In this document: piece after piece, positions 1,995 to 54,194 of the stretch
How positions within the stretch are numbered: position 1 is the stretch's first letter
Layout of the letters: the number at the start of each line of letters is the position of its first letter
Source of the DNA: Shewanella polaris
GTDB taxonomy: Bacteria > Pseudomonadota > Gammaproteobacteria > Enterobacterales > Shewanellaceae
Assembly: GCF_006385555.1 (NCBI RefSeq)
Contig: NZ_CP041036.1
Coordinates: 1,674,001-1,738,000 of the forward strand
DNA: 64,000 nucleotides
Direction of reading: 5' to 3'
The notes under the pieces: model-generated
The model's database searches: none
The model's input: the letters and a program-made list of their open reading frames with translations, nothing else
Told to the model about the DNA's origin: nothing
Program-made: the position numbers and the translations under genes

Positions 1995-4499
1995 ATGAGG
2001 TCAGCGTTTAAGGTTTATTTCGTACTTTTGTGTTCGTTTTTTCTCGTCGCCTGTGGCGGCGGCGGCAGTATAACCGATGATGGTGCCGGAGGAGACGATA
2101 CTGATACTACTACAATTACATTAGCTATCGACAATTCTCAGGTTTCGGTTGCAGAGCCGGCAATCATTACTGCAACAGTAAAAGATTCAACGGGTGCTGC
2201 TGTCAGTACCCTTGTTACATTTACGCTCAACAATGATGATTATGGTACATTTTCACCCAGTACTGGTGAAGTCGTCACTAACTCAAGCGGTGTGGCGACT
2301 ATCCAGCTCAATACTGCAGAGATTAATACCGGAGCAACAGTGACCGCTACCACCACAACAGGTGAGAACGCGTCATTATTTGTCACAATGACAGGTGACG
2401 GTGGTGTAGCCGGAGGCGGAGCGCAAGTCTCATTGGTGTTAACCGATGCCGCTGGCAATGCTATTCAATCTATCAGTACCTTATCGCCGGGTAAATTAAC
2501 CGCGACTGTTACGGGTATTACCAAGTCCTCTATTGTGACATTTGATAGCCCTATCGGTGATTTGCCTGTTAAAACAGCAGTAACCAATGCTCAAGGCAAA
2601 GCCACCATTGATATTTATGCTGGCAGTTCGTTAGGTGCTGGTGAAGCAACAGCGACATTGTCTACCAATGAAACCGGTTCAACGATTGTTGTTGTCGGGG
2701 CAACGAATGTTGTTATGGGTAGCGGTACACCTTTTGTTGAAGGTGTGGCAGAAATTAGTACAACTGATTTATCTGCGGGCGGAACAGCAACGGTAACAGT
2801 GTCAATTCAAGATGATTTAGGTAATGCTTTTACCCAACCCGTTGATGTTAATTTCTCATCAACTTGCGCGACAAAAACTCCGGCGCAAGCTGTGATTAGT
2901 ACCCCTGTTTCATCAAGTAATGGTATTGCTACTTCAACCTACCGTGCAGAAGGTTGCGTTGGTGAAGACCAAATTAATGTGACAGCCGATGCTGGCGGTA
3001 TTAGCTTATCTGCAGTGGGTACTATCAATGTGCTCCAGGCTGATGTTGGCAGTATTGTGTTTGTATCCGCCGTTCCTGAAAATATTAGTATTTTAGGCAC
3101 TGGTGGTACTGAAGCATCAGTGGTTAAATTTAAAGTGTTGGATAAAAATAGCAATGTGGTTGCTAACCAAAATGTTAAATTTTCACTTAATACCAGTGTT
3201 GGGGGGGTTAAAATTGATCCTCTGCAAGCCACCACAGACAATGATGGCATTGTACAAACTGTCGTGACTACTGGTACCGTAGCGACGTCTTTACGTGTTA
3301 CCGCTACTGTAGATAATGGCGCAGTACCTGCTGTGTCGAGTCAATCTAATCAGTTGATTGTGTCTACGGGTATTCCAGACCAAGACAGCTTCTCATTAGC
3401 TGCGACAATTTTAAATGCCGAAGGTTGGGATGTAGATGGAACAGAAGTGACCATTACAGCTCGCATGGCGGATGCGTTCAACAACCCTGTCCCAGATGGA
3501 ACTACCGTGTCTTTTACTACCGAAGGTGGTTCTATTGAAGATGCATGTCAAACACTGGATGGAGCATGTTCTGTCACTTGGACAAGCCAGTTACCTCGAC
3601 CTGAAGGTGAAACTTTGCTTAATGGTGCCGGTCAGATGGCCTTAAATCCAAATGCAGAATTGTCGTATGATTCAACATTACAGATTTATGGTAATATTTA
3701 TGGCCAAAAATACGGTGGACGCGCCACGATTACCGCCACGGCTATTGGTGAAGAGTCATTCCCTGACCTCAATGGTAATGGTCGTTTTGATGCTTCAGAA
3801 GCAACAGAATTTCTTACTGGTACTGATGTAACGGGTCAACTATTTGATTTAAATGATGCCTTTAATGACTACAACGAAGATGGATTATTTAACCCGCAAC
3901 AAACAGGCGGTCAACTTGGTGGAACATTAGAAGAGTTGGTTGATTTTAACTCTAATGGTGTATTTGATCTCAAAGACAGTAAATACAATGGTGTGCTTTG
4001 TTCTGATCCGGTACACAGTGCTTGTGCCGATGGTGTCACTGAATCTAAGTCACTATATGTACGCCGCAGCCTAACCATGGTGATGTCTGGTAGTCAAGCT
4101 TATGCAACAGCAGCCAAAGACGTGTTTGAGTCAGTTACACCTGCTTACATCGAAGCAAATGGTTATGATTATGTATTGATAGATGACACTGATGACCTGC
4201 ATTATGGTAGTAATATGACTATAGTGGGCAAAGGTTCTGCAACGGCAACGTTTACTATTTCAGACTTGCATAATCAACAAATGCCAGCAGGTTCAGTCGT
4301 GAGATTTACGACCTCCGCAGGCTCTGTTGTGAGCGCAAGTGAATATACATGGCCAAGTACTAACTATAACGGTGGCCGTGAATTTACCACCACCATTAAA
4401 GGTGAAGATGAAGCGAATACTGGAGTATTTCTTGTTGAAGTTGAATCACCAAATGGTTTGATTACTCCAGTAGTTTCGATTGGTGTAACTATCCTATAA
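1995..4499 (+). CDS. Large Ig-like (invasin/Big_1-type) repeat lipoprotein
   Basis: I start this at the ATG at 1995, preceded by GGAG about nine bases upstream, and not at the in-frame TTG at 1923. From this start a lipoprotein signal ends in LVAC with Cys20 followed by a poly-Gly/Asp linker, so the 834-residue product should be lipidated and probably surface- or outer-membrane-anchored. The body is a series of roughly 100-residue Ig-like beta repeats typical of Big_1/invasin domains (recurring V.A.. and G.ATVTA..  patterns). Between about residues 590 and 655 lie three DxNxxGxF-type acidic loops (DLNGNGRFD, DYNEDGLFN, DFNSNGVFD) that resemble calcium-binding EF-hand or dockerin loops. A role in adhesion or surface structure is inferred; no enzymatic motif is visible. 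Confidence 0.8.
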   Translation: MRSAFKVYFVLLCSFFLVACGGGGSITDDGAGGDDTDTTTITLAIDNSQVSVAEPAIITATVKDSTGAAVSTLVTFTLNNDDYGTFSPSTGEVVTNSSGVATIQLNTAEINTGATVTATTTTGENASLFVTMTGDGGVAGGGAQVSLVLTDAAGNAIQSISTLSPGKLTATVTGITKSSIVTFDSPIGDLPVKTAVTNAQGKATIDIYAGSSLGAGEATATLSTNETGSTIVVVGATNVVMGSGTPFVEGVAEISTTDLSAGGTATVTVSIQDDLGNAFTQPVDVNFSSTCATKTPAQAVISTPVSSSNGIATSTYRAEGCVGEDQINVTADAGGISLSAVGTINVLQADVGSIVFVSAVPENISILGTGGTEASVVKFKVLDKNSNVVANQNVKFSLNTSVGGVKIDPLQATTDNDGIVQTVVTTGTVATSLRVTATVDNGAVPAVSSQSNQLIVSTGIPDQDSFSLAATILNAEGWDVDGTEVTITARMADAFNNPVPDGTTVSFTTEGGSIEDACQTLDGACSVTWTSQLPRPEGETLLNGAGQMALNPNAELSYDSTLQIYGNIYGQKYGGRATITATAIGEESFPDLNGNGRFDASEATEFLTGTDVTGQLFDLNDAFNDYNEDGLFNPQQTGGQLGGTLEELVDFNSNGVFDLKDSKYNGVLCSDPVHSACADGVTESKSLYVRRSLTMVMSGSQAYATAAKDVFESVTPAYIEANGYDYVLIDDTDDLHYGSNMTIVGKGSATATFTISDLHNQQMPAGSVVRFTTSAGSVVSASEYTWPSTNYNGGREFTTTIKGEDEANTGVFLVEVESPNGLITPVVSIGVTIL

Positions 4500-46728: not shown

Positions 46729-46923
46729 ATCTGACTTTCAACGCGATACGACCTCTGGCGAGGCCGACTTTGGGGGGCATGACTATCGAACCCGATGTGA
46801 CTTTAGCTCTGAAGACACGCCAAATGAGCCTATTTGGCGGTTGAGTTCGTTGTCTATAACCAGCGAAATAGTTAGCCTAATGATTTTTACTATAGGAGGT
46901 ATCATCATTATCTTTTTGTCTTT
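46729..46923 (+). pseudogene. Decayed remnant of a cassette-3-type RHS tip plus its small membrane gene
   Basis: Bases 46729-46846 align by eye with 52495-52618 (inside the C-terminal tip of the third mini-RHS copy), and 46850-46923 align with about 52796-52876 (inside its small downstream membrane gene). The stretch between is deleted, and small indels break the frames. Shared strings include CCAAATGAGCCTATTT and AACCAGCGAAATAGTTAGCC. It has no start codon and cannot encode either protein. It shows that an older cassette of the same type once stood to the left of the present array. Confidence 0.8.
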
Positions 46924-47307
46924 ATGAACGACAAGCTTATTGCAAAGGATGGTACTGGAAATACAAACACGGCCGCACTTTCAGCGCCAACGGCCAGCAT
47001 GACCTGTAACCCAAGTTCATGCCAAACCACTAAGACGGGGTCTGGTACTGCATCAATCACCCTAACCTTAAGCAAAAGTTGTCCTAAGGGGTGCGAAACC
47101 GAATGGTATTACACAGGCCATTCGATTTTCAACAATACGGGTGGGGTTAGCCCAAAAACGTTCAGTTACTACTGTCGTAATGTAAGTGAAAGTAAAACGG
47201 GTACCGTTGGGGCAATCATCACAGATAATTCGACGGGACTAACGACGAAGGTGTCTAAATCACTCACAATAACGTGCAAAGTATCAGGCGGTGGTATCGA
47301 GCTATGA
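46924..47307 (+). CDS. Unknown protein or C-terminal fragment, translationally coupled to mini-RHS copy 1
   Basis: An open frame of 127 codons with balanced composition, four Cys pairs and a beta-rich pattern (SMTCNPSSCQTTKTGSG, SKSCPKGCETEWYYTGHS, TITCKVSGGGIEL), like one or two Ig-type domains. The ATG at 46924 sits exactly at the end of the decayed remnant and has no ribosome-binding site nearby. It is therefore probably the 3' part of a larger gene. The stop overlaps the next ATG (ATGA), so the two genes are coupled. Only its last ~58 bases reappear ahead of RHS copies 2 and 3. Confidence 0.5.
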   Translation: MNDKLIAKDGTGNTNTAALSAPTASMTCNPSSCQTTKTGSGTASITLTLSKSCPKGCETEWYYTGHSIFNNTGGVSPKTFSYYCRNVSESKTGTVGAIITDNSTGLTTKVSKSLTITCKVSGGGIEL

Positions 47308-48149
47308 AAAATCTATTACAAATTTTAGCGATGTTGATATTATTTCCCAGTAGCATTGCGGTTGCGGGAGTGACATTTGTACACAGCGATTTATTAGGCT
47401 CACCGGTTGCAGAAACCAATAGTGCAGGACAAATCGTTACGCTTTCACATTACAAAGCCTTTGGTGAAGAAATCGAACAGAAGCGTGATGACGTAGGTTA
47501 TACCGGTCATAAATATGATGCTGATTTGGGCCTGAGTTATATGCAGGCACGATACTATGATCCAGTCATAGGTCGTTTTTATTCGAATGATCCTATCGGA
47601 TATCGTGATGTACATAGCTTTAATAGATATGCGTATGCGAATAATAATCCATATAAATATACAGATCCTACAGGTATGAGTTCGTATAACCCTCAAGGCA
47701 TGGTTCAAAATGTTCAAGGTTTACGTGAAAGCATACCTAAAAGTGGAATAGTCGATGCAACAACGGTTAAAGTTGGTATGGGGGCGGGCTTACAAGTGAA
47801 AACTCAAAATGTTCCTGGAGTTGGTTCATTTGACGCTGGTGGCTCTGTTGCGGTATCAAGCGTGATGACTACTGATAAAGCAGCTCAAGGTATTGAGTTT
47901 AGTGCTGATGCAGGTTTAAATGCTAGTGACTCTACAGGCTCAATGACTGGTAAAGTGCAACTTGGTAAGGCTGAAGCACTGGTTCAACCTCAAAATGGTA
48001 CAATGACCACCAAAACAGAAGGTGCGAAAGCCACAGGCACACTAAATGCTGGTAATACTTCTGTTGATAATAGCGGAAAGGTGAAAGTTGGTGGACATAT
48101 TGGCTTAATAAAGGTCGAAGTAGAAGTTGATACTAGCAAGCTTAATTAA
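47304..48149 (+). CDS. Mini-RHS protein, copy 1 (signal peptide, last RHS core, variable tip)
   Basis: A 281-residue product. Residues 1-22 form a Sec signal peptide (MKNLLQILAMLILFPSS, then IAVAG). Next is a single RHS-associated core (VHSDLLGSPVAETNSAGQ, HKYDADLGLSYMQARYYDP, GRFYSNDPIGY), then FNRYAYANNNPYKYTDPTG. The last ~145 residues are a Gly/Thr/Val-rich tip with no recognised fold. Full RHS proteins are about ten times longer with many YD repeats; here only the hyperconserved end is kept. This copy retains an intact ATG, unlike copies 2 and 3. Two small membrane genes follow. A toxin role for the tip is inferred from family context only. Confidence 0.75.
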   Translation: MKNLLQILAMLILFPSSIAVAGVTFVHSDLLGSPVAETNSAGQIVTLSHYKAFGEEIEQKRDDVGYTGHKYDADLGLSYMQARYYDPVIGRFYSNDPIGYRDVHSFNRYAYANNNPYKYTDPTGMSSYNPQGMVQNVQGLRESIPKSGIVDATTVKVGMGAGLQVKTQNVPGVGSFDAGGSVAVSSVMTTDKAAQGIEFSADAGLNASDSTGSMTGKVQLGKAEALVQPQNGTMTTKTEGAKATGTLNAGNTSVDNSGKVKVGGHIGLIKVEVEVDTSKLN

Positions 48150-48162
48150 AGGGGTAGTTATT

Positions 48163-48456
48163 TTGACGATATGGAAAAATTTGATACTTACTTGGGTGTT
48201 AGTTTTAGGAGCAATTATTTTGTATTCTATTGCTGTTACTGGTGGAGTAAATGCAAATGATAACTCTAGATATCTTGGTATTTTCTTTTGGGTTATTACA
48301 ATACTAGTTAGTATTTATCCGCTAGGTTATTTAATATATAAAAGACAAGAATATGATACATTCGAAACTATTAAGTTTTTTATTATTGCTTTGCTTTGCC
48401 CTTTTATAGGTAGTATTTATTTGTTTTTTAAAAACAATAAGAATAGAAGTAAATGA
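48163..48456 (+). CDS. Small membrane protein after mini-RHS copy 1 (possible immunity partner)
   Basis: A 97-residue protein with three hydrophobic segments, ending in a basic FFKNNKNRSK tail. I start it at the TTG at 48163, since AAAGGGG lies eight bases upstream and immediately follows the RHS stop; the frame extends to 48127 inside the RHS gene. No family is recognised. The position directly behind an RHS tip is where immunity genes lie in polymorphic toxin loci, and a membrane immunity protein would suit a membrane-acting tip. This role is an inference. Confidence 0.6.
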   Translation: MTIWKNLILTWVLVLGAIILYSIAVTGGVNANDNSRYLGIFFWVITILVSIYPLGYLIYKRQEYDTFETIKFFIIALLCPFIGSIYLFFKNNKNRSK

Positions 48457-48710
48457 ATTTTTATGAATCGGATATAGCGTTTTTCCTGTTTTTTCTTTTT
48501 GGGATAAATGCTTTAGTTAGAGGAAGTATTTCATTCCAATTCGAAGCAGGAAAAAAAGGTGTCAATACACTTTTGACAGAGAAGCCCTCATATAAAAGAG
48601 GGCATAACATTACTGGTTGGAAGGCTCGTAGTATTGGTCTCATATCTCTTATTTTAAGTGCGATAATTCATTTTTTTATGAAAAGTGGAGAAGTGATATT
48701 TTCATTGTAA
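48453..48710 (+). CDS. Second small membrane protein of cassette 1
   Basis: An 85-residue protein. Its ATG overlaps the stop of the preceding gene (ATGA), so it is translated with it. Hydrophobic segments lie at about residues 8-24 and 62-76, with a basic segment (KPSYKRGHNITGWKARS) between. No family is recognised. It could be a second component of the putative immunity function or a passenger gene. Confidence 0.55.
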   Translation: MNFYESDIAFFLFFLFGINALVRGSISFQFEAGKKGVNTLLTEKPSYKRGHNITGWKARSIGLISLILSAIIHFFMKSGEVIFSL

Positions 48711-48787
48711 ACTTTATAGTTAAAGCTCTCATAAACGGGAATTTATTATAATATGACAACCTTAATTCATAATTAGGAAGGAAACAT

Positions 48788-49285
48788 ATGGCAAACATAC
48801 TTTTAAGGCTATTGGGAGTTATTATGCTGTTAGCATCATATTCATCCAATGCTTCATTGGTTATTACAGCCTCACAAATTAATGAAATTAACGATAAACT
48901 TGCAAAAGCAGCCAGTAATTGTGATTTTAAAGCATCAACAAAATTTTACTTTAAAAATACTAAATTTTTTAACTACTCATTAATTAGTGGAGTAGAGTCG
49001 GTAGAAGAACAAAATTTTGATGAAGCGATTACATCAATTAAAGATGCAATGGCCGCTTGCCCTCTCAAGTTAGATAGAGAAGAACCTATTGTTGAAGATA
49101 TTAAGGTTGACGATTCTGGGCAATCAGCCGAATTTATATTTGAGTCCTTACATTATTTAAGGGCAAAAGATGGAACTATGTATCAAAGTCATGCTAAGGG
49201 GAAAACGATATTTGGCGTTATTGACGGACGTATTGTTATTTTAGAATCGCATTACAAAGGCTTGTCGTTTGAAGTGGTAGAGTAA
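48788..49285 (+). CDS. Exported protein of unknown function, end of cassette 1
   Basis: A 165-residue protein with a clear signal peptide (about residues 1-22, ending SYSSNAS) and an excellent ribosome-binding site AGGAAGG before the ATG. The mature part alternates helix and strand and ends in KGKTIFGVIDGRIVILESHYKGLSFEV, a pattern seen in NTF2-like or DUF4440-type folds, but that likeness is weak. It is the last gene before the cassette terminator. Confidence 0.6.
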   Translation: MANILLRLLGVIMLLASYSSNASLVITASQINEINDKLAKAASNCDFKASTKFYFKNTKFFNYSLISGVESVEEQNFDEAITSIKDAMAACPLKLDREEPIVEDIKVDDSGQSAEFIFESLHYLRAKDGTMYQSHAKGKTIFGVIDGRIVILESHYKGLSFEVVE

Positions 49286-49312
49286 GAAAAATAATTAATA
49301 CTTTTGATTCCT

Positions 49313-49351
49313 AAGCCCCTTATGAGGAGATCTCATAAGGGGCTTTATTTT
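49313..49351 (+). terminator. Terminator closing cassette 1
   Basis: A perfect 14-bp stem AAGCCCCTTATGAG with a five-base loop is followed by a T-rich stretch. It runs straight into the 31-bp cassette-end repeat. Confidence 0.92.
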
Positions 49352-49371
49352 TGGCTGCTTTTGAAGCCAAA
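49341..49371 (+). repeat. 31-bp cassette-end repeat, copy i
   Basis: The 31-bp sequence beginning GGCTTTATTTTTGGC and ending GAAGCCAAA recurs at 51710-51740 and 52957-52987, each time at the end of an RHS cassette. It contains a small hairpin (TTGGCT...AGCCAA). Confidence 0.9.
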
Positions 49372-49405
49372 GGGATTGATGGTTTCTTGCGCAACAATAA
49401 AAGTA

Positions 49406-49493
49406 AAATAAAAGTGGACTGCCACAATAAATCGTGTGATTTAACATCTTCTACTAAACTCAAAAAAGTTTTAAATGTAGGAGTTTGTTATGC
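49406..49493 (+). repeat. 88-bp leader repeat, copy A
   Basis: This begins AAATAAAAGTGGACTGCCAC and ends GTTATGC. It is an imperfect copy of the leader of the transposase gene at 53394 and is directly followed by copy B in tandem. It carries the transposase ribosome-binding site and start codon but no transposase body. Confidence 0.9.
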
Positions 49494-49581
49494 AAATAAA
49501 AGTGGACAGCCACAATAAATCGCGTGATTTAACATCTTCTACTAAACTCAAAAAAGTTTTAAATGTAGGAGTTTGTTATGC
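49494..49581 (+). repeat. 88-bp leader repeat, copy B (left end of cassette 2)
   Basis: In tandem with copy A, from which it differs by eye at two positions. It holds a small hairpin (GTGG-ACAG-CCAC) near its left end. It starts the 432-bp block shared with cassette 3 and is followed by a nine-codon frame (MPEEYGHSF) that replaces the transposase. Confidence 0.9.
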
Positions 49582-49649
49582 CAGAAGAATATGGCCACTC
49601 ATTCTAATTACCGTATCTAAATCACTCACAATAACGTGCAAAGTATCAG

Positions 49650-50582
49650 GTGGTGGTATCGAGCTATGAAATTCTAATACAAATTTTAGTGATGTTGATA
49701 TTATTTACCAGTAGCATTGCGGTTGCGGGAGTGACATTTGTACACAGCGATTTATTAGGCTCACCGGTTGCAGAAACCAATAGTGCAGGACAAATCGTTA
49801 CGCTTTCACATTACAAAGCCTTTGGTGAAGAAATCGAACAGAAGCGTGATGACGTAGGTTATACCGGTCATAAATATGATGCTGATTTGGGCCTGAGTTA
49901 TATGCAGGCACGATACTATGATCCAGTTATCGGGCGGTTTTATTCGAATGATCCTGTTGGATACGCAGGTAACCCACACAGCTTTAATCGATACGCATAC
50001 GCAAATAATAACCCGTATAAATATACTGATCCCAACGGAGAGTTTCCGGTATTGGGGTTTATTGCTGGTGTAGCATTAGAAGTGACAAGACAAGCCTTAA
50101 CTGGTGAAATAAAGGATACTAGTTTTTCAGGGATTGCAAAAAATGTGGGTAAAGCTCTAGTTTCTGGTGCAGCAGGGGCTACAGGTGCAGGATTGGCCTC
50201 AAAAGCAGCATCGTTGAGTTTAGCGGGAAGGACGGCTGTGAATACTGCTGGAGGTGCTGCTATAGGAGCAAGTTCAACAGTAGCCAATAATGCGATTGAT
50301 GGCAAAAATCTGACTGATAATGTAGGGACAGGTGCATTAATAGGCTCTGCGGCAGGAGCTGCTGGTTCATTAGTGGGAGATGGTATAGATGCAGCGAAGA
50401 CAATGGTAAATCAAAAAGCATTTAATAAACTGTCAGTGTCTGACCAAAATTTAATACAACATGTAAAACAAGCTACAGGTACTTCATCGTCCAATACCGT
50501 AGGTGTTGCAGATGCAGTTGGCAATGCAGTTGCTAATTCTAATGGAGTAGCTGACTCTTGTGGGGTACAAAAAGAATGTTAA
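49650..50582 (+). CDS. Mini-RHS protein, copy 2, with damaged start
   Basis: The RHS core is nearly identical at DNA level to copy 1 up to the YYDP codons, then diverges. The tip is an Ala/Gly-rich, glycine-zipper-like segment (GAAGATGAGLASKAASL, GALIGSAAGAAGSLVGDG) ending in a Cys-containing tail (VADSCGVQKEC). Compared with copy 1 there is a 1-nt deletion just after the original ATG, which now reads into TAA after three codons. The frame is open only from GTG 49650 or ATG 49692, which lack good ribosome-binding sites and the basic start of the signal peptide. Expression is therefore doubtful. Confidence 0.65.
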   Translation: MVVSSYEILIQILVMLILFTSSIAVAGVTFVHSDLLGSPVAETNSAGQIVTLSHYKAFGEEIEQKRDDVGYTGHKYDADLGLSYMQARYYDPVIGRFYSNDPVGYAGNPHSFNRYAYANNNPYKYTDPNGEFPVLGFIAGVALEVTRQALTGEIKDTSFSGIAKNVGKALVSGAAGATGAGLASKAASLSLAGRTAVNTAGGAAIGASSTVANNAIDGKNLTDNVGTGALIGSAAGAAGSLVGDGIDAAKTMVNQKAFNKLSVSDQNLIQHVKQATGTSSSNTVGVADAVGNAVANSNGVADSCGVQKEC

Positions 50583-50824
50583 AAAAAGAGAAGAGTCAAG
50601 GACGATTTTATTTGTATCTGTCTGCTTCTTTGGATGGTTTGGGAATTATTCTATTAGGTATCGTACTTGAGATATTGCTTCGGTTGGGTATTTACTTTGA
50701 CTTATTAAAGCCCGGATTGGAGTGGTTTGTGTTTATGTCCTTGTTATGCTTCGGTGGCGCTTGGGCTTTAATTAAACTTTTACTGCTCTGGATAAAAATC
50801 CGAAAATATGACACACAATCCTAA
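50576..50824 (+). CDS. Small membrane protein after mini-RHS copy 2 (possible immunity partner)
   Basis: An 82-residue protein starting at the ATG at 50576, overlapping the RHS stop by seven bases. It has a basic N-terminus (MLKKEKSQGRFYLY) and two hydrophobic segments (about residues 17-38 and 50-71), then a basic tail. It is not similar in sequence to the small proteins of cassettes 1 and 3, as expected if each tip has its own partner. The function is inferred from position. Confidence 0.6.
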   Translation: MLKKEKSQGRFYLYLSASLDGLGIILLGIVLEILLRLGIYFDLLKPGLEWFVFMSLLCFGGAWALIKLLLLWIKIRKYDTQS

Positions 50825-50838
50825 GCATTTTTGAATCC

Positions 50839-50880
50839 AAAGCCTCGCACTCGCTGACTTAGCTGAGGGGCTTTGTTTTA
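50839..50880 (+). terminator. Hairpin terminator after cassette-2 partner gene
   Basis: An AAAGCCTC...GAGGGGCTTT stem is followed by TGTTTTA. The left half (CCAAAGCCTCGCACTCG) recurs at 51657-51673 in the next terminator. Confidence 0.7.
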
Positions 50881-51062
50881 TCTGGCTTGGGAGTTTGAGT
50901 TTTTTTCAAGGAAGAGGGGCCAGCTTTGAATCCAACCTAATTGATTTAGGGGGTAATGGCAGAGACAATTAAATAATTGTCTCTAACGCTTAATTAATTT
51001 TTGTAAAAATGACAGTGTGTTAACTTTCTCAAGCATTTCCACTTTTAAGAGGTAAAATTTAA

Positions 51063-51641
51063 GTGCAAGAAGAGAAAGTCACATGGCTACAGTTGCTACT
51101 AGGCACATTGTTATTGTCTATTGCGTTAATAATAAACTATGTAACACCAGCGTTTTCGTTATTCGATGGAAAAATTGATGAACGAGCAATGGCTCACGCG
51201 ATTGGGTTTGCGTCAATGACTGTTTTTGGGTTTGGTTGGTTAAATCTAAAAAGGAACCAAGCTTTGGTCATAATAAGTATTTCCTTTATAGGTGGACTGG
51301 CTATTGCCAAGTTCTATTCACCTAGTTTGGCTAAATTGTTAATAACATTAACTATTTTTAGTATTGTTAACCTGTTTTCGCCATTTTTCTTTAACTATCT
51401 GAAAGATAAATTTAAATATGTATCATTGGCGTTTGTATTTATAGCGGTTGTTTTTACTTCATTCTACTGGGAAATTCATGTTCAACCGAACTTAGGCGGA
51501 TATCCAGACCTTCTGCCAAGGTATTATGTCCAATTTCAGCTTGCAATGGATTTAGTAGGAATAATACTAGGATTGGTATTAATCATACGCTCAAATCGAC
51601 AGTTCTTTTTAAAATGCCATAATGAAGCAAAAGCGCCATAA
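51063..51641 (+). CDS. Multi-pass membrane protein of unknown function
   Basis: A 192-residue protein with about six hydrophobic segments that starts with GTG, with AAGAGG eleven bases upstream. It has no recognisable family. It sits inside cassette 2 between two terminators and may be a passenger or a second partner of the copy 2 tip. The C-terminus is short and basic (IIRSNRQFFLKCHNEAKAP). Confidence 0.6.
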   Translation: MQEEKVTWLQLLLGTLLLSIALIINYVTPAFSLFDGKIDERAMAHAIGFASMTVFGFGWLNLKRNQALVIISISFIGGLAIAKFYSPSLAKLLITLTIFSIVNLFSPFFFNYLKDKFKYVSLAFVFIAVVFTSFYWEIHVQPNLGGYPDLLPRYYVQFQLAMDLVGIILGLVLIIRSNRQFFLKCHNEAKAP

Positions 51642-51658
51642 CAACCGCAATTGAATCC

Positions 51659-51690
51659 AAAGCCTCGCACTCGCGGGGCTTTTTTTTGTT
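51659..51690 (+). terminator. Terminator at the end of cassette 2
   Basis: An AAAGCCTCGCACTCGCGGGGCTTT hairpin is followed by TTTTT. The 31-bp cassette-end repeat follows at 51710. Confidence 0.85.
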
Positions 51691-51709
51691 TTCAAGTCTA
51701 CTAGCAAAT

Positions 51710-51740
51710 GGCTTTATTTTTGGCTGCTTTTGAAGCCAAA
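51710..51740 (+). repeat. 31-bp cassette-end repeat, copy ii
   Basis: Same 31 bases as at 49341 and 52957. It lies 25 bases before the next 88-bp leader repeat. Confidence 0.9.
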
Positions 51741-51765
51741 GGGAAAACCTTTTTATGGTAAATAT

Positions 51766-51853
51766 AAATAAAAGTGGACAGCCACAATAAATCGCGTGAT
51801 TTAACATCTTCTACTAAACTCAAAAAAGTTTTAAATGTAGGAGTTTGTTATGC
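51766..51853 (+). repeat. 88-bp leader repeat, copy C (left end of cassette 3)
   Basis: Nearly identical to copy B and again followed by the nine-codon MPEAYGHSF-type frame instead of transposase. Confidence 0.9.
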
Positions 51854-51921
51854 CAGAAGCATATGGCCACTCATTCTAATTACCGTATCTAAATCACTCA
51901 CAATAACGTGCAAAGTATCAG

Positions 51922-52728
51922 GTGGTGGTATCGAGCTATGAAATTCTAATACAAATTTTAGTGATGTTGATATTATTTACCAGTAGCATTGCGGTTGCGG
52001 GAGTGACATTTGTACACAGCGACTTATTAGGCTCACCGGTTGCAGAAACCAATAGTGCAGGACAAATCGTTACGCTTTCACATTACAAAGGCTTTGGTGA
52101 AGAAATCGAATAGAAGCGTGATGACGTAGGTTATACCGGTCATAAATATGATGCTGATTTGGGCCTGAGTTATATGCAGGCACGATACTATGATCCACTT
52201 ATAGGCCGTTTTTATTCGAATGATCCGATTGGGTTTAAAAATGTTCACAACTTTAATCGTTATGCTTATGCTAACAATAATCCGTATAAGTACATAGATC
52301 CTGATGGGAAAGATACGCTAGCTATTGGAGTTGATGTTGAGGCTATTTTACCTATTGGAGGAGGCGGGCAAGCGGGAGGATTTATAAATTATGATAAAGG
52401 TGTGATAACTATTGGGACTTTTACCGAAACTAAAGTATCTGCTGGAGAGGACATTGGTGTAAGTGTATCTATCCAAGGTTCAGGTGGTGGTTTATCTGAC
52501 TTTCAAGGCGATGCAGTAACTGCCGAGGCTGACTTTGGGGTCATCACTATCGAACCTGGTGCGACTTTAGACTCTGAAGGCATGCCAAATGAGCCTATTT
52601 TTGGGGTTGAGTTTGGTCTAGGCTTACCAGCAGGAGGTTCTGGTAACCATCTTACTACAACAATCGAAGACAGCATTAGTATAGATATTTCGCCTGTAAT
52701 AAAGGCTGTGGAGGAATGGATTGAATGA
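51922..52728 (+). pseudogene. Mini-RHS copy 3, broken by an in-frame TAG
   Basis: The DNA matches copy 2 over 432 bp (51766-52197) with about four differences seen by eye. One changes CAG to TAG at 52111, cutting the core after GFGEEIE. The original ATG is also lost by the same 1-nt deletion as in copy 2. Downstream, the frame is open from 52114 to 52728 and keeps YMQARYYDPLIGRFYSNDPIGF followed by a Gly-rich tip (IGGGGQAGGFINYDKG ... EDSISIDISPVIKAVEEW). A product could arise only by read-through or internal initiation near the ATG at 52159. Confidence 0.8.
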
Positions 52729-52921
52729 ATTTAATTATCTAAGCAAATTTAAGTGGTTTACTTTATTTGTTTGCATTTTGCTTATGACCTTAGTTTTGTC
52801 ATCTATAACCAGCGAAATAGTTAGCCTAGTGATCTTTACTATAGGAGGTATCATCATTATCTTTTTGTCTTTTTATGCTGACAATAATAGATGGGAATGG
52901 CCTCCTCGGTGGAAGAAGTAA
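52721..52921 (+). CDS. Small membrane protein after mini-RHS copy 3 (possible immunity partner)
   Basis: A 66-residue protein with two hydrophobic segments (about 10-28 and 33-50) and a Trp/Arg-rich end (NNRWEWPPRWKK). It starts with TTG at 52721, strongly supported by GGAGG six bases upstream, and overlaps the RHS stop. A decayed copy of this gene lies at 46850-46923. No family is recognised, and its role is inferred from its place behind the tip. Confidence 0.65.
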   Translation: MNEFNYLSKFKWFTLFVCILLMTLVLSSITSEIVSLVIFTIGGIIIIFLSFYADNNRWEWPPRWKK

Positions 52922-52942
52922 ACAGGCTGTAAATTTTTACCT

Positions 52943-52966
52943 AAAGCCCCTCGCGGGGCTTTATTT
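52943..52966 (+). terminator. Terminator closing cassette 3
   Basis: An AAAGCCCC-TCGC-GGGGCTTT hairpin followed by a T-rich run, merging into the 31-bp end repeat. Confidence 0.88.
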
Positions 52967-52987
52967 TTGGCTGCTTTTGAAGCCAAA
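52957..52987 (+). repeat. 31-bp cassette-end repeat, copy iii
   Basis: The third copy of the 31-bp end sequence; the array stops here. Confidence 0.9.
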
Positions 52988-53056
52988 AAATAGATTCAAT
53001 GAGAACGCTTAAGCCGTCAGTGTTATCGTTAAGATTTCGCTCATCCGGAACCCTGC

Positions 53057-53311: not shown

Positions 53312-53397
53312 ATAAAAGTGGACAGCCACAATAAATCGCGTGATTTAGCATCTTCTACTAAACTCAAAAAAGTTTTAAATGTAGGAGTTTGTTATGC
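53312..53397 (+). repeat. 88-bp leader repeat, copy D, in front of an actual transposase gene
   Basis: The only copy still joined to the transposase frame. It contains the GTGG-ACAG-CCAC hairpin at the left and TAGGAG before the ATG. Confidence 0.88.
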
Positions 53398-54194
53398 CAC
53401 GTCCTCGTAGAACCCAGATTAGTGTCGAAGACACGCCATTTTATCACTGTTGTAGCCGTGTAGTACGGCGTGCTTACCTTTGTGGCGATGATAAAATTTC
53501 TGGTCGGAACTACAATCATCGCCGTGGTTGGGTCGAATCTCTATTACTTGAATTAGTTGAAGCCCATGAAGTGCTCAGGTTGAAACATTCTATTGCGACT
53601 TATCGCAGTCGTTTATGTGATATTTCTTGGTTCATGCGCTGTTTAAATGAGCCAATAGCAAGACAAGCAAATCAAGAAGATAACTGTACGGGGCGCTTCT
53701 GGGAGGGTAGATTTAAATCTCAAGCGCTACTTGATGAAGCCGCAGTACTTGCTTGTATGGCTTATGTTGACCTCAACCCTATCAGAGCCAAGATGGTAGA
53801 GAGTCCGGAGCAATCAGACCATACCAGCATTCAACTGCGTATTAAGGCGGCATTAAAAGGCGAGCAGCCCAAAAGTCTACTGACTTTCATTGGTAATGAG
53901 CGAAACAACCAACCTAAAGGAATTGCGTTTTCGCTGCAAGATTATCTTGAATTGGTTGATGATACAGGGCGTATTATTCGTAACGATAAGCGTGGCGCTA
54001 TCAGTGCCAATAGCACTAAGTTACTCGCAAGATTAAATATCCCCCAAGATAACTGGCTTAAACTCACCACTGAATTTGGCAAGCTATTTCACGGCCCAGT
54101 GGGCACACTTCAAGAGCTGACTCACTATTGTGAACATTTAGAGAAACGCCGACGACACTTCGCGAGTTGTTGTCAGCATTTAAAAGCGGGTTAA
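53394..54194 (+). CDS. RAYT/IS200-like (Y1) transposase with an internal deletion
   Basis: A 266-residue protein of the REP-associated tyrosine transposase group. The N-terminus MPRPRRTQISVEDTPFYHCC and the central WFMRCLNEPIARQANQED, CTGRFWEGRFKSQALLDE and CMAYVDLNPIRAKM are typical. CMAYVDLNP probably carries the catalytic Tyr. Between GWVESLLLELV (about residue 55) and EAHEVLRLKHS the usual segment with the HUH motif (a SNHxH-type pair) is missing, with no frame change. The family is normally about 320 residues, so the product is probably inactive on its own. Its leader is the 88-bp repeat found across the RHS array. Confidence 0.8.
   Translation: MPRPRRTQISVEDTPFYHCCSRVVRRAYLCGDDKISGRNYNHRRGWVESLLLELVEAHEVLRLKHSIATYRSRLCDISWFMRCLNEPIARQANQEDNCTGRFWEGRFKSQALLDEAAVLACMAYVDLNPIRAKMVESPEQSDHTSIQLRIKAALKGEQPKSLLTFIGNERNNQPKGIAFSLQDYLELVDDTGRIIRNDKRGAISANSTKLLARLNIPQDNWLKLTTEFGKLFHGPVGTLQELTHYCEHLEKRRRHFASCCQHLKAG

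Follow-up and report, generated by a model that had tools for sequence, protein, structure and literature searches.

Three short RHS genes in Shewanella polaris: probably decaying toxin-immunity cassettes with tips exchanged at a 27-nucleotide core string

The array described here lies in a 64,000-nucleotide (nt) stretch of Shewanella polaris DNA (the window: contig NZ_CP041036.1, positions 1,674,001 to 1,738,000, forward strand) and consists of three tandem mini-RHS (rearrangement hotspot) genes at window positions 47304-52728, each with one RHS core and a C-terminal tip of its own. We think it probable that these genes are decaying, secreted toxin-immunity cassettes and that their tips are exchanged at a 27-nt string within the core. 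An incoming unit of core end, tip, partner gene and 31-bp element would recombine at the string and replace or displace the resident tip, either by homologous recombination or through a dedicated tyrosine recombinase that is not present in this genome. Copy 1 would be exported by Sec, to judge from hydropathy; its tip would act on or across the membrane, and the membrane proteins encoded behind it would provide immunity. Copies 2 and 3 would have arisen by duplication of a 5' unit that already carried a transposase leader, would then have received different tips, and are probably silent.

Results

No RHS-associated core beyond these three was found in a search of the whole genome (4.65 Mb, one contig). 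TIGR03696 scores copy 1 at 83.2 bits, copy 2 at 81.2 bits and the piece of copy 3 that follows its stop at 61.0 bits (cut-off 32.5); RHS_repeat, the YD-repeat shell, has no match in any of the three. All three copies share a 300-nt 5' unit, in which copy 2 matches copy 1 at 95% and copy 3 matches it at 94%. A 300-nt 5' stretch with an 88-bp repeat in it is 99% identical between copies 2 and 3. The tips are mutually different, as are the genes behind them, and hydrophobic 19-residue segments occur in all six of those genes that we tested (4, 2, 1, 2, 5 and 2). The original prediction, made from the sequence alone, had described this layout of three single-core copies with different tips, each followed by different small membrane genes, and it stands.

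Copy 1 has its ATG, and its tip is 157 residues long. A 1-nt length difference common to copies 2 and 3 puts the ATG of copy 1 out of frame in both. The predicted loss of their start therefore holds for the original ATG; because in-frame GTG and ATG codons are still present, loss of expression is something that we infer. The further suggestion, that copies 2 and 3 form a silent reservoir for an expressed copy 1, calls for a live receiver of tips. With neither another RHS core nor a long partner gene in the genome, copy 1 is the one candidate for that part, and decay fits equally well.

The 31-bp element marks the 3' end of RHS cassettes in several genera. It was predicted, and found, behind each copy, exact three times where none is expected by chance; at the first and third sites it overlaps the end of the terminator, and at the second it starts 28 nt past it (Table 1). 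With up to 3 mismatches, 60 genomes yielded five sites: the three here and one each in G032 and G027, which lie 1,348 and 1,190 nt past an RHS core. The 24-nt core of the repeat, with at most 1 mismatch, likewise had five sites in 394 genomes: these three, one in G266 that lies 3.8 kb past an RHS core on the same strand, and one in G226. Among plasmids (7.3 billion bases), matches in Alteromonas stellipolaris (expect value, E, 2e-6) and Paraglaciecola mesophila (E 8e-6) stand 1,013 and 924 nt after RHS cores, directly behind a partner gene; a third plasmid match, at E 0.6, resembles chance. The P. mesophila plasmid has a second, weaker copy, again after an RHS gene and its partner. At RHS-centred loci with the element, the distance past a core is 1.7 kb or less for 15 of 18 sites. 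At most of 15 aligned sites it prolongs the T run of the terminator, as judged by eye, and conservation ends sharply on both sides.

Other identities for the element were rejected. It is not a repeat of the genome at large (its 3 copies all lie in the array), nor a phage site (the 24-nt core has no exact match in viral contigs, and five phage records match only at E 0.2-0.8), and no RNA family in Rfam matches it up to E 0.1; E. coli has no match at E 0.01. On the P. mesophila plasmid (NZ_CP047657, 8000-20000), an RHS gene, its partner, the weaker 31-bp element and IS66 genes follow in succession, and after them an unrelated tyrosine recombinase and a HipA-type toxin-antitoxin pair.

Variable tips with specific partners recur in other genera for tips 1 and 2, and by position only for tip 3. 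Matches among the order's 394 genomes come from 3 genomes for tip 1, 2 for tip 2 and 3 for tip 3 (own genome counted), and protein searches with tips 1 and 3 found three relatives of tip 1 and one of tip 3, on differing RHS cores. Partner 2a resembles an 81-residue protein behind the tip-2 relative of locus L147 (score 98, z 10.3, 0 of 300 shuffles), and partner 1b an 87-residue protein behind the tip-1 relative of the same locus (score 70, z 10.2, 0 of 300 shuffles). We infer that the membrane partners are immunity proteins, the tip acting on or across the membrane.

In a tree of cores, the window copies cluster with short genes of P03SST1bin.20 (nine rows; Shimodaira-Hasegawa-like approximate likelihood ratio test 94, a node not starred). 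This 2.4-Mb metagenome-assembled genome holds seven short genes with open tips on four contigs, with their own leaders and mostly a gene behind, and an eighth whose tip is almost absent. Pfam families Peptidase_M91, Peptidase_M23, Tox-HNH-EHHH or PT-HINT exceed the cut-off in four of the seven tips (the PT-HINT relative also has a sub-threshold Ntox24); the other three have no toxin family. Toxin domains on these free-standing relatives support the view of the tip as a toxin domain. Together with the linkage between tip and partner they favour the prediction of an RHS form that is minimal, of secretion type and able to exchange its tips. Large arrays of mini-RHS cassettes also occur over several short contigs of Shewanella sp. 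DT_112 (loci L043 and L078 of G027).

What is exchanged seems to be a tip together with its partner, bounded on the 5' side by a frozen string in the core. The original prediction had whole cassettes added and replaced; on the boundary data given below, the whole copy does not look like the unit. The string TATATGCAGGCACGATACTATGATCCA, which encodes YMQARYYDP, is identical in 93 of 134 cores (145 minus 11 without the protein motif), and its 26-nt form TATATGCAGGCACGATACTATGATCC is exact in 98 of them: 22/33 single-chain, 40/60 short, 20/23 orphan and 16/18 partial. Loci that repeat a contig were excluded (L049, L051, L052, L054, L074 and L118; the orphan-site statistics also leave out L147 and the window). 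Mean codon diversity is 0.10 inside the string and 0.38 outside it at two-fold codons (p 0.001), and 0.31 and 0.67 at other codons (p 0.004); the rows are related, and these p values are a guide only.

The same string is where orphan tips start. A non-coding motif, TGGnTCGTAnTnnnnAnTAATn, precedes it in 24 unique orphans; the window copies have core sequence there, not a non-coding arm. Plasmid matches to the 49-nt form of the site came from Alteromonas, Pseudoalteromonas or Paraglaciecola in all 16 records. When 22 orphan sites were examined for an attC-like fold, 8 folded better than versions of themselves in which the arm had been shuffled (z below -1.5). The mean z was -1.19, and no hairpin common to all of the sites was found.

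We compared paralogues across this boundary in seven genomes chosen for having several copies (125 pairs, one of them from the window; pairs below 80% upstream identity and window copy 3 omitted). Mean identity is 91-95% before the string, 96% in it, 79% over the next 15 nt and 87% over the following 18 nt. All seven genomes show lower identity over those first 15 nt than within the string, and no fall was seen at a control position 45 nt upstream (92 to 94%). Between the window copies, identity falls after about 47565.

New tips of RHS and other polymorphic toxins are usually attributed to homologous recombination. Applied to these genes, that account makes the string simply the longest shared homology, kept alike by repeated gene conversion, and we give it not quite an even chance. 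Fusion of main and orphan rhs genes by homologous recombination is documented for Salmonella (PMC3967940), and the window genome lacks the RHS-linked recombinase discussed next. Against plain homology, most other core codons of equal conservation as protein vary synonymously; identity drops directly after the string in every genome compared; and the orphans share their non-coding motif just before it.

A site-specific route can be put forward tentatively, as possible rather than probable. In marine bacteria of the Alteromonadales type, a XerC-like recombinase may join tip-immunity cassettes (a non-coding arm plus TATATGCAGGCACGATACTATGATCCA, often with the 31-bp end) to the string of a resident RHS gene, so that a coding motif would double as the attachment site. 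The array L050 carries such a protein, at 293.7 bits to PRK01287 (cut-off 371); at 85.3 bits it falls below the integron-integrase cut-off of 265 and does not qualify as IntI. Recombinases of this type (at least 55% identity) number nine in five of 36 genomes, which were chosen mostly for RHS arrays. Eight of the nine belong to RHS arrays; the other is on a contig of 9.4 kb that has no RHS. The stretch between recombinase and orphan tip can hold toxin-antitoxin-like genes (Fic; DUF4258 with helix-turn-helix), and IstB and an rve-type transposase gene can precede the recombinase; on account of these neighbours the recombinase could be a passenger of another mobile element. The window genome has no copy at or above 55% identity; its only two matches, at 32%, we take to be XerC and XerD.

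At locus L199 (G016:C60), which has no RHS nearby, a recombinase copy is preceded by IstA/IstB-like genes and followed by two others, of which one has an SMC/AAA-type match. The tyrosine recombinase beside the RHS gene of the P. mesophila plasmid was considered and set aside (24% identity; not of the L050 subfamily). We found no open-access paper, judged by title and start of abstract, on RHS with a tyrosine recombinase.

Many relatives of the short gene are the second half of a split RHS. The relatives are the best 80 of 402, and on non-repeated contigs they include 64 full-core short genes. In 25 of these a hydrophobic N-terminus follows a separate YD-repeat gene, whose stop falls from 80 nt inside to 141 nt before the short-gene start (20 nt or less in 17). 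The upstream reading frames have at least 1,200 codons in 20 of the 25, the remainder being shorter pieces. A further 20 of the 64, the three in the window among them, have a hydrophobic start and no upstream YD-repeat gene. Many long genes end past a YLGKxLVAE-type segment, an Ig-like stretch and a Gly-rich tail, with the short gene restarting at HTDxLGSP; at other loci the long gene stops at once and an FN3-like stretch sits on the short gene (Ig-like and FN3-like stretches assigned by eye). A single-chain relative reads straight through the split point. In the annotation of Alteromonas mediterranea pAMDE1, there is a 4-nt overlap between an 'RHS repeat protein' and an 'RHS repeat-associated core' gene; next come a polymorphic toxin type 10 gene, which starts at the frozen string, and an Imm27 gene. 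The possibility raised with the original prediction, that in relatives the arrangement is always a truncation of one full-length RHS gene, does not hold for these 25.

In the window there is no long YD-repeat gene directly upstream. A 127-residue open reading frame that overlaps the start of copy 1 is a putative 3' remnant of such a gene, and the window keeps at most a remnant of this kind; it resembles sequence in front of one L062 copy, the one with its start at 4373 (62% over 29 residues, E 3.7e-5). A long-gene query had no match in the window genome or in P03SST1bin.20, where absence counts for little in an assembly that is possibly incomplete, and one match in each of three other genomes. 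No paper on split RHS was found in the open-access literature. Two split loci, L046 (G003) and L053 (G046), are flanked by tandem small proteins (about 105-125 residues) with hydrophobic starts, possibly immunity-like repeats.

It is unlikely that the array consists of ordinary orphan rhs-CT modules, that is, of tips and immunity genes displaced by recombination with a full-length rhs gene that was later lost. No full-length RHS is left in the genome and copies 2 and 3 lack the original start, as this account would have it, and orphan modules are well known in Enterobacteriaceae (PMC3150448, PMC3967940). They share with the array a conserved core, a variable tip, a partner behind and tandem displaced modules. 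However, published orphans are, according to PMC3967940, mostly without a translation start and located behind a main rhs, and a signal-peptide-like N-terminus is usually absent from them. Copy 1, by contrast, retains an ATG and a hydrophobic N-terminus, and neither locus nor genome has a main rhs. Moreover, this architecture recurs in relatives, either in the second gene of a two-gene RHS or in free-standing genes.

The 88-bp repeat precedes copy 2 as a tandem pair and copy 3 as a single copy, as predicted. Its proposed role as an element, or an end, of the RHS cassette had to be abandoned: it runs into a REP (repetitive extragenic palindrome)-type transposase gene at 53312, and is the leader of that gene. 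Four repeats lie in the window, and a fifth, 91% alike, stands before the same gene type at genome position 403522. The codons deleted from the window transposase include a stretch that we take to be of the HUH type, which the copy at 403522 keeps; the window gene thus has no intact HUH-type stretch, and it scores below its family cut-off. The subfamily has 13 matches in the window genome and 64 genome-wide in G027. Of 78 RHS loci (the window plus 77 of 78 loci of relatives), 12 have a transposase gene on the strand of the core and no more than 3 kb past the last one, and 2 have it on the other strand; in an upstream control, 4-7 kb before the first core, the counts are 0 and 1. We use this locus count in place of one over 36 genomes, some of which were chosen for having a transposase. 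We read the transposase as a companion of RHS loci, not as part of the cassette. No open-access paper on RHS with a REP transposase was found, judged by title and start of abstract. At L161 (G266:C1:874000-886000, reverse strand), an array of RHS tip and toxin fragments lies between two transposase genes in the same direction, 314 of 327 residues identical.

That transposase copies merely duplicated one RHS fragment, its tips decaying without function, is very improbable: it would suit an 88-bp repeat that is a transposase leader and the 12 loci with a transposase gene behind, but tips 1 and 2 have relatives in other genera with matching partner genes, which decay would not lead one to expect, and the 31-bp element is not in the transposase (13 transposase matches and 3 elements in the genome).

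Among further features, an exact 24-nt repeat, TTGAATCCAAAGCCTCGCACTCGC, occurs at 50831-50854 and 51651-51674, the second overlapping a terminator (51659-51682). Promoter-like sites are not enriched (21, against a mean of 24.8 in shuffled sequence). Plasmid and phage searches with copy 1 found no place with 80% of copy 1 covered.

Table 1. Features of the mini-RHS array (window coordinates)
Feature	Position	Strand	Basis or remark
Copy 0, deleted remnant of a copy-3-like tip and membrane partner	46729..46923	+	81-94% identity, in pieces, to stretches within 52494-52872
127-residue open reading frame ending CKVSGGGIEL, overlapping the copy-1 start; 3' remnant of long RHS partner gene?	46924..47307	+	Position and Gly-rich end as in long genes of relatives
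Copy 1 mini-RHS: hydrophobic signal-peptide-like start, core 47367-47675, tip 1	47304..48149	+	
Frozen 27-nt string TATATGCAGGCACGATACTATGATCCA of copy 1, codons YMQARYYDP	47538..47564	+	
Partner 1a, small membrane protein	48127..48456	+	Hydropathy; weak similarity to proteins behind tip-1 relatives of L147, L148
Partner 1b, small membrane protein	48453..48710	+	Similar to 87-residue protein behind L147 tip-1 relative
165-residue protein, hydrophobic start, between partner 1b and 31-bp repeat	48788..49285	+	Without known family or tip-linked relative
Terminator 49313-49345, then 31-bp repeat 49341-49371	49313..49371	+	
Two tandem copies of the 88-bp transposase leader (49408, 49496), before copy 2	49408..49583	+	
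Last 59 nt of putative long-gene remnant, 5' of copy 2	49613..49671	+	97% to 47251-47309
Copy 2 mini-RHS with tip 2; original start out of frame	~49669..50582	+	Frozen string 49899-49925
Partner 2a, membrane protein, two hydrophobic segments	50558..50824	+	Similar to 81-residue protein behind L147 tip-2 relative
192-residue protein, five hydrophobic segments	51063..51641	+	Without family over cut-off
Terminator 51659-51682 and 31-bp repeat 51710-51740	51659..51740	+	
88-bp transposase leader before copy 3	51768..51855	+	
Copy 3 mini-RHS with tip 3; start out of frame, in-frame TAG	~51941..52728	+	Frozen string 52171-52197
Partner 3, 66-residue protein, two hydrophobic segments	52721..52921	+	Hydropathy
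Terminator 52942-52963 and 31-bp repeat 52957-52987	52942..52987	+	
REP-associated transposase: 88-bp leader and gene (53394-54194) without about 55 internal codons	53312..54194	+	NF047646 33.4 bits, cut-off 80

Discussion

A number of observations weigh against reading the array as secreted cassettes that exchange tips at the string. In two of the seven genomes compared, identity drops already inside the string (98-99% before it, 91% in it), which slightly weakens both this reading and the site-specific route. The string is frozen everywhere, so high identity within it is partly expected, and AAT GAT codons slightly downstream are nearly as invariant. The 31-bp site in G226 has no RHS core within the 13 kb examined. 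In the shuffling test, partner 1a scored no more than z 3.6-4.8 with the proteins encoded after the tip-1 relatives in L147 and L148. A pair with no relationship scored z 5.2 there, and we therefore rely on partners 1b and 2a only. Behind the tip-3 relative of L149 lies a 54-residue hydrophobic protein whose similarity to partner 3 is not significant. No Pfam or NCBIfam family is over cut-off for any of the three tips. The predicted fold of tip 1 is of low confidence (mean pLDDT, predicted local distance difference test, 54.7). That of tip 3 averages 83.1 and has no match in the PDB at E 0.001 or below; its best match, R. equi VapB (E 1.3e-3, template modelling scores 0.45/0.55), gave no lead. 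The tree, built from 106 columns, has poor resolution, the relatives are a selection of best matches, signal peptides were called from hydropathy alone, and the 127-residue reading frame has no significant similarity to the long genes with which it was compared.

The cassettes we favour can be set beside several known systems. In integrons and in the pilV shufflon of R64, members of the tyrosine recombinase family act on a short site to exchange cassettes or, in place of these, alternative 3' ends of a coding sequence. The recombinase linked to RHS is XerC-like, and the window genome has no such copy. In the Rhs loci of E. coli, H-rpt elements place a transposase-type gene recurrently behind RHS tips; unlike these, the window gene is a REP-associated transposase. 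WapA of Gram-positive bacteria is one long chain, whereas the window type is core and tip only. Secreted RHS proteins such as WapA share with the proposed cassettes that they are exported polymorphic toxins akin to RHS (PMC12704120). In the TcB-TcC cocoon, as set out in PMC8765631, an RHS shell is built from two polypeptides with the toxin on the C-terminal one. Split RHS shares this plan. It differs from Tc toxins in dividing just before the last core segment, and in a short protein that has its own secretion-type start.

If the fixed DNA string in the core does belong together with a defined 3' element and with a linked recombinase, tip exchange would be a dedicated, testable reaction. A split, secretion-type RHS would add a form of delivery not necessarily tied to the type VI system. 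Mini-RHS genes that stand alone would indicate how small a part of the protein suffices for carrying a tip.

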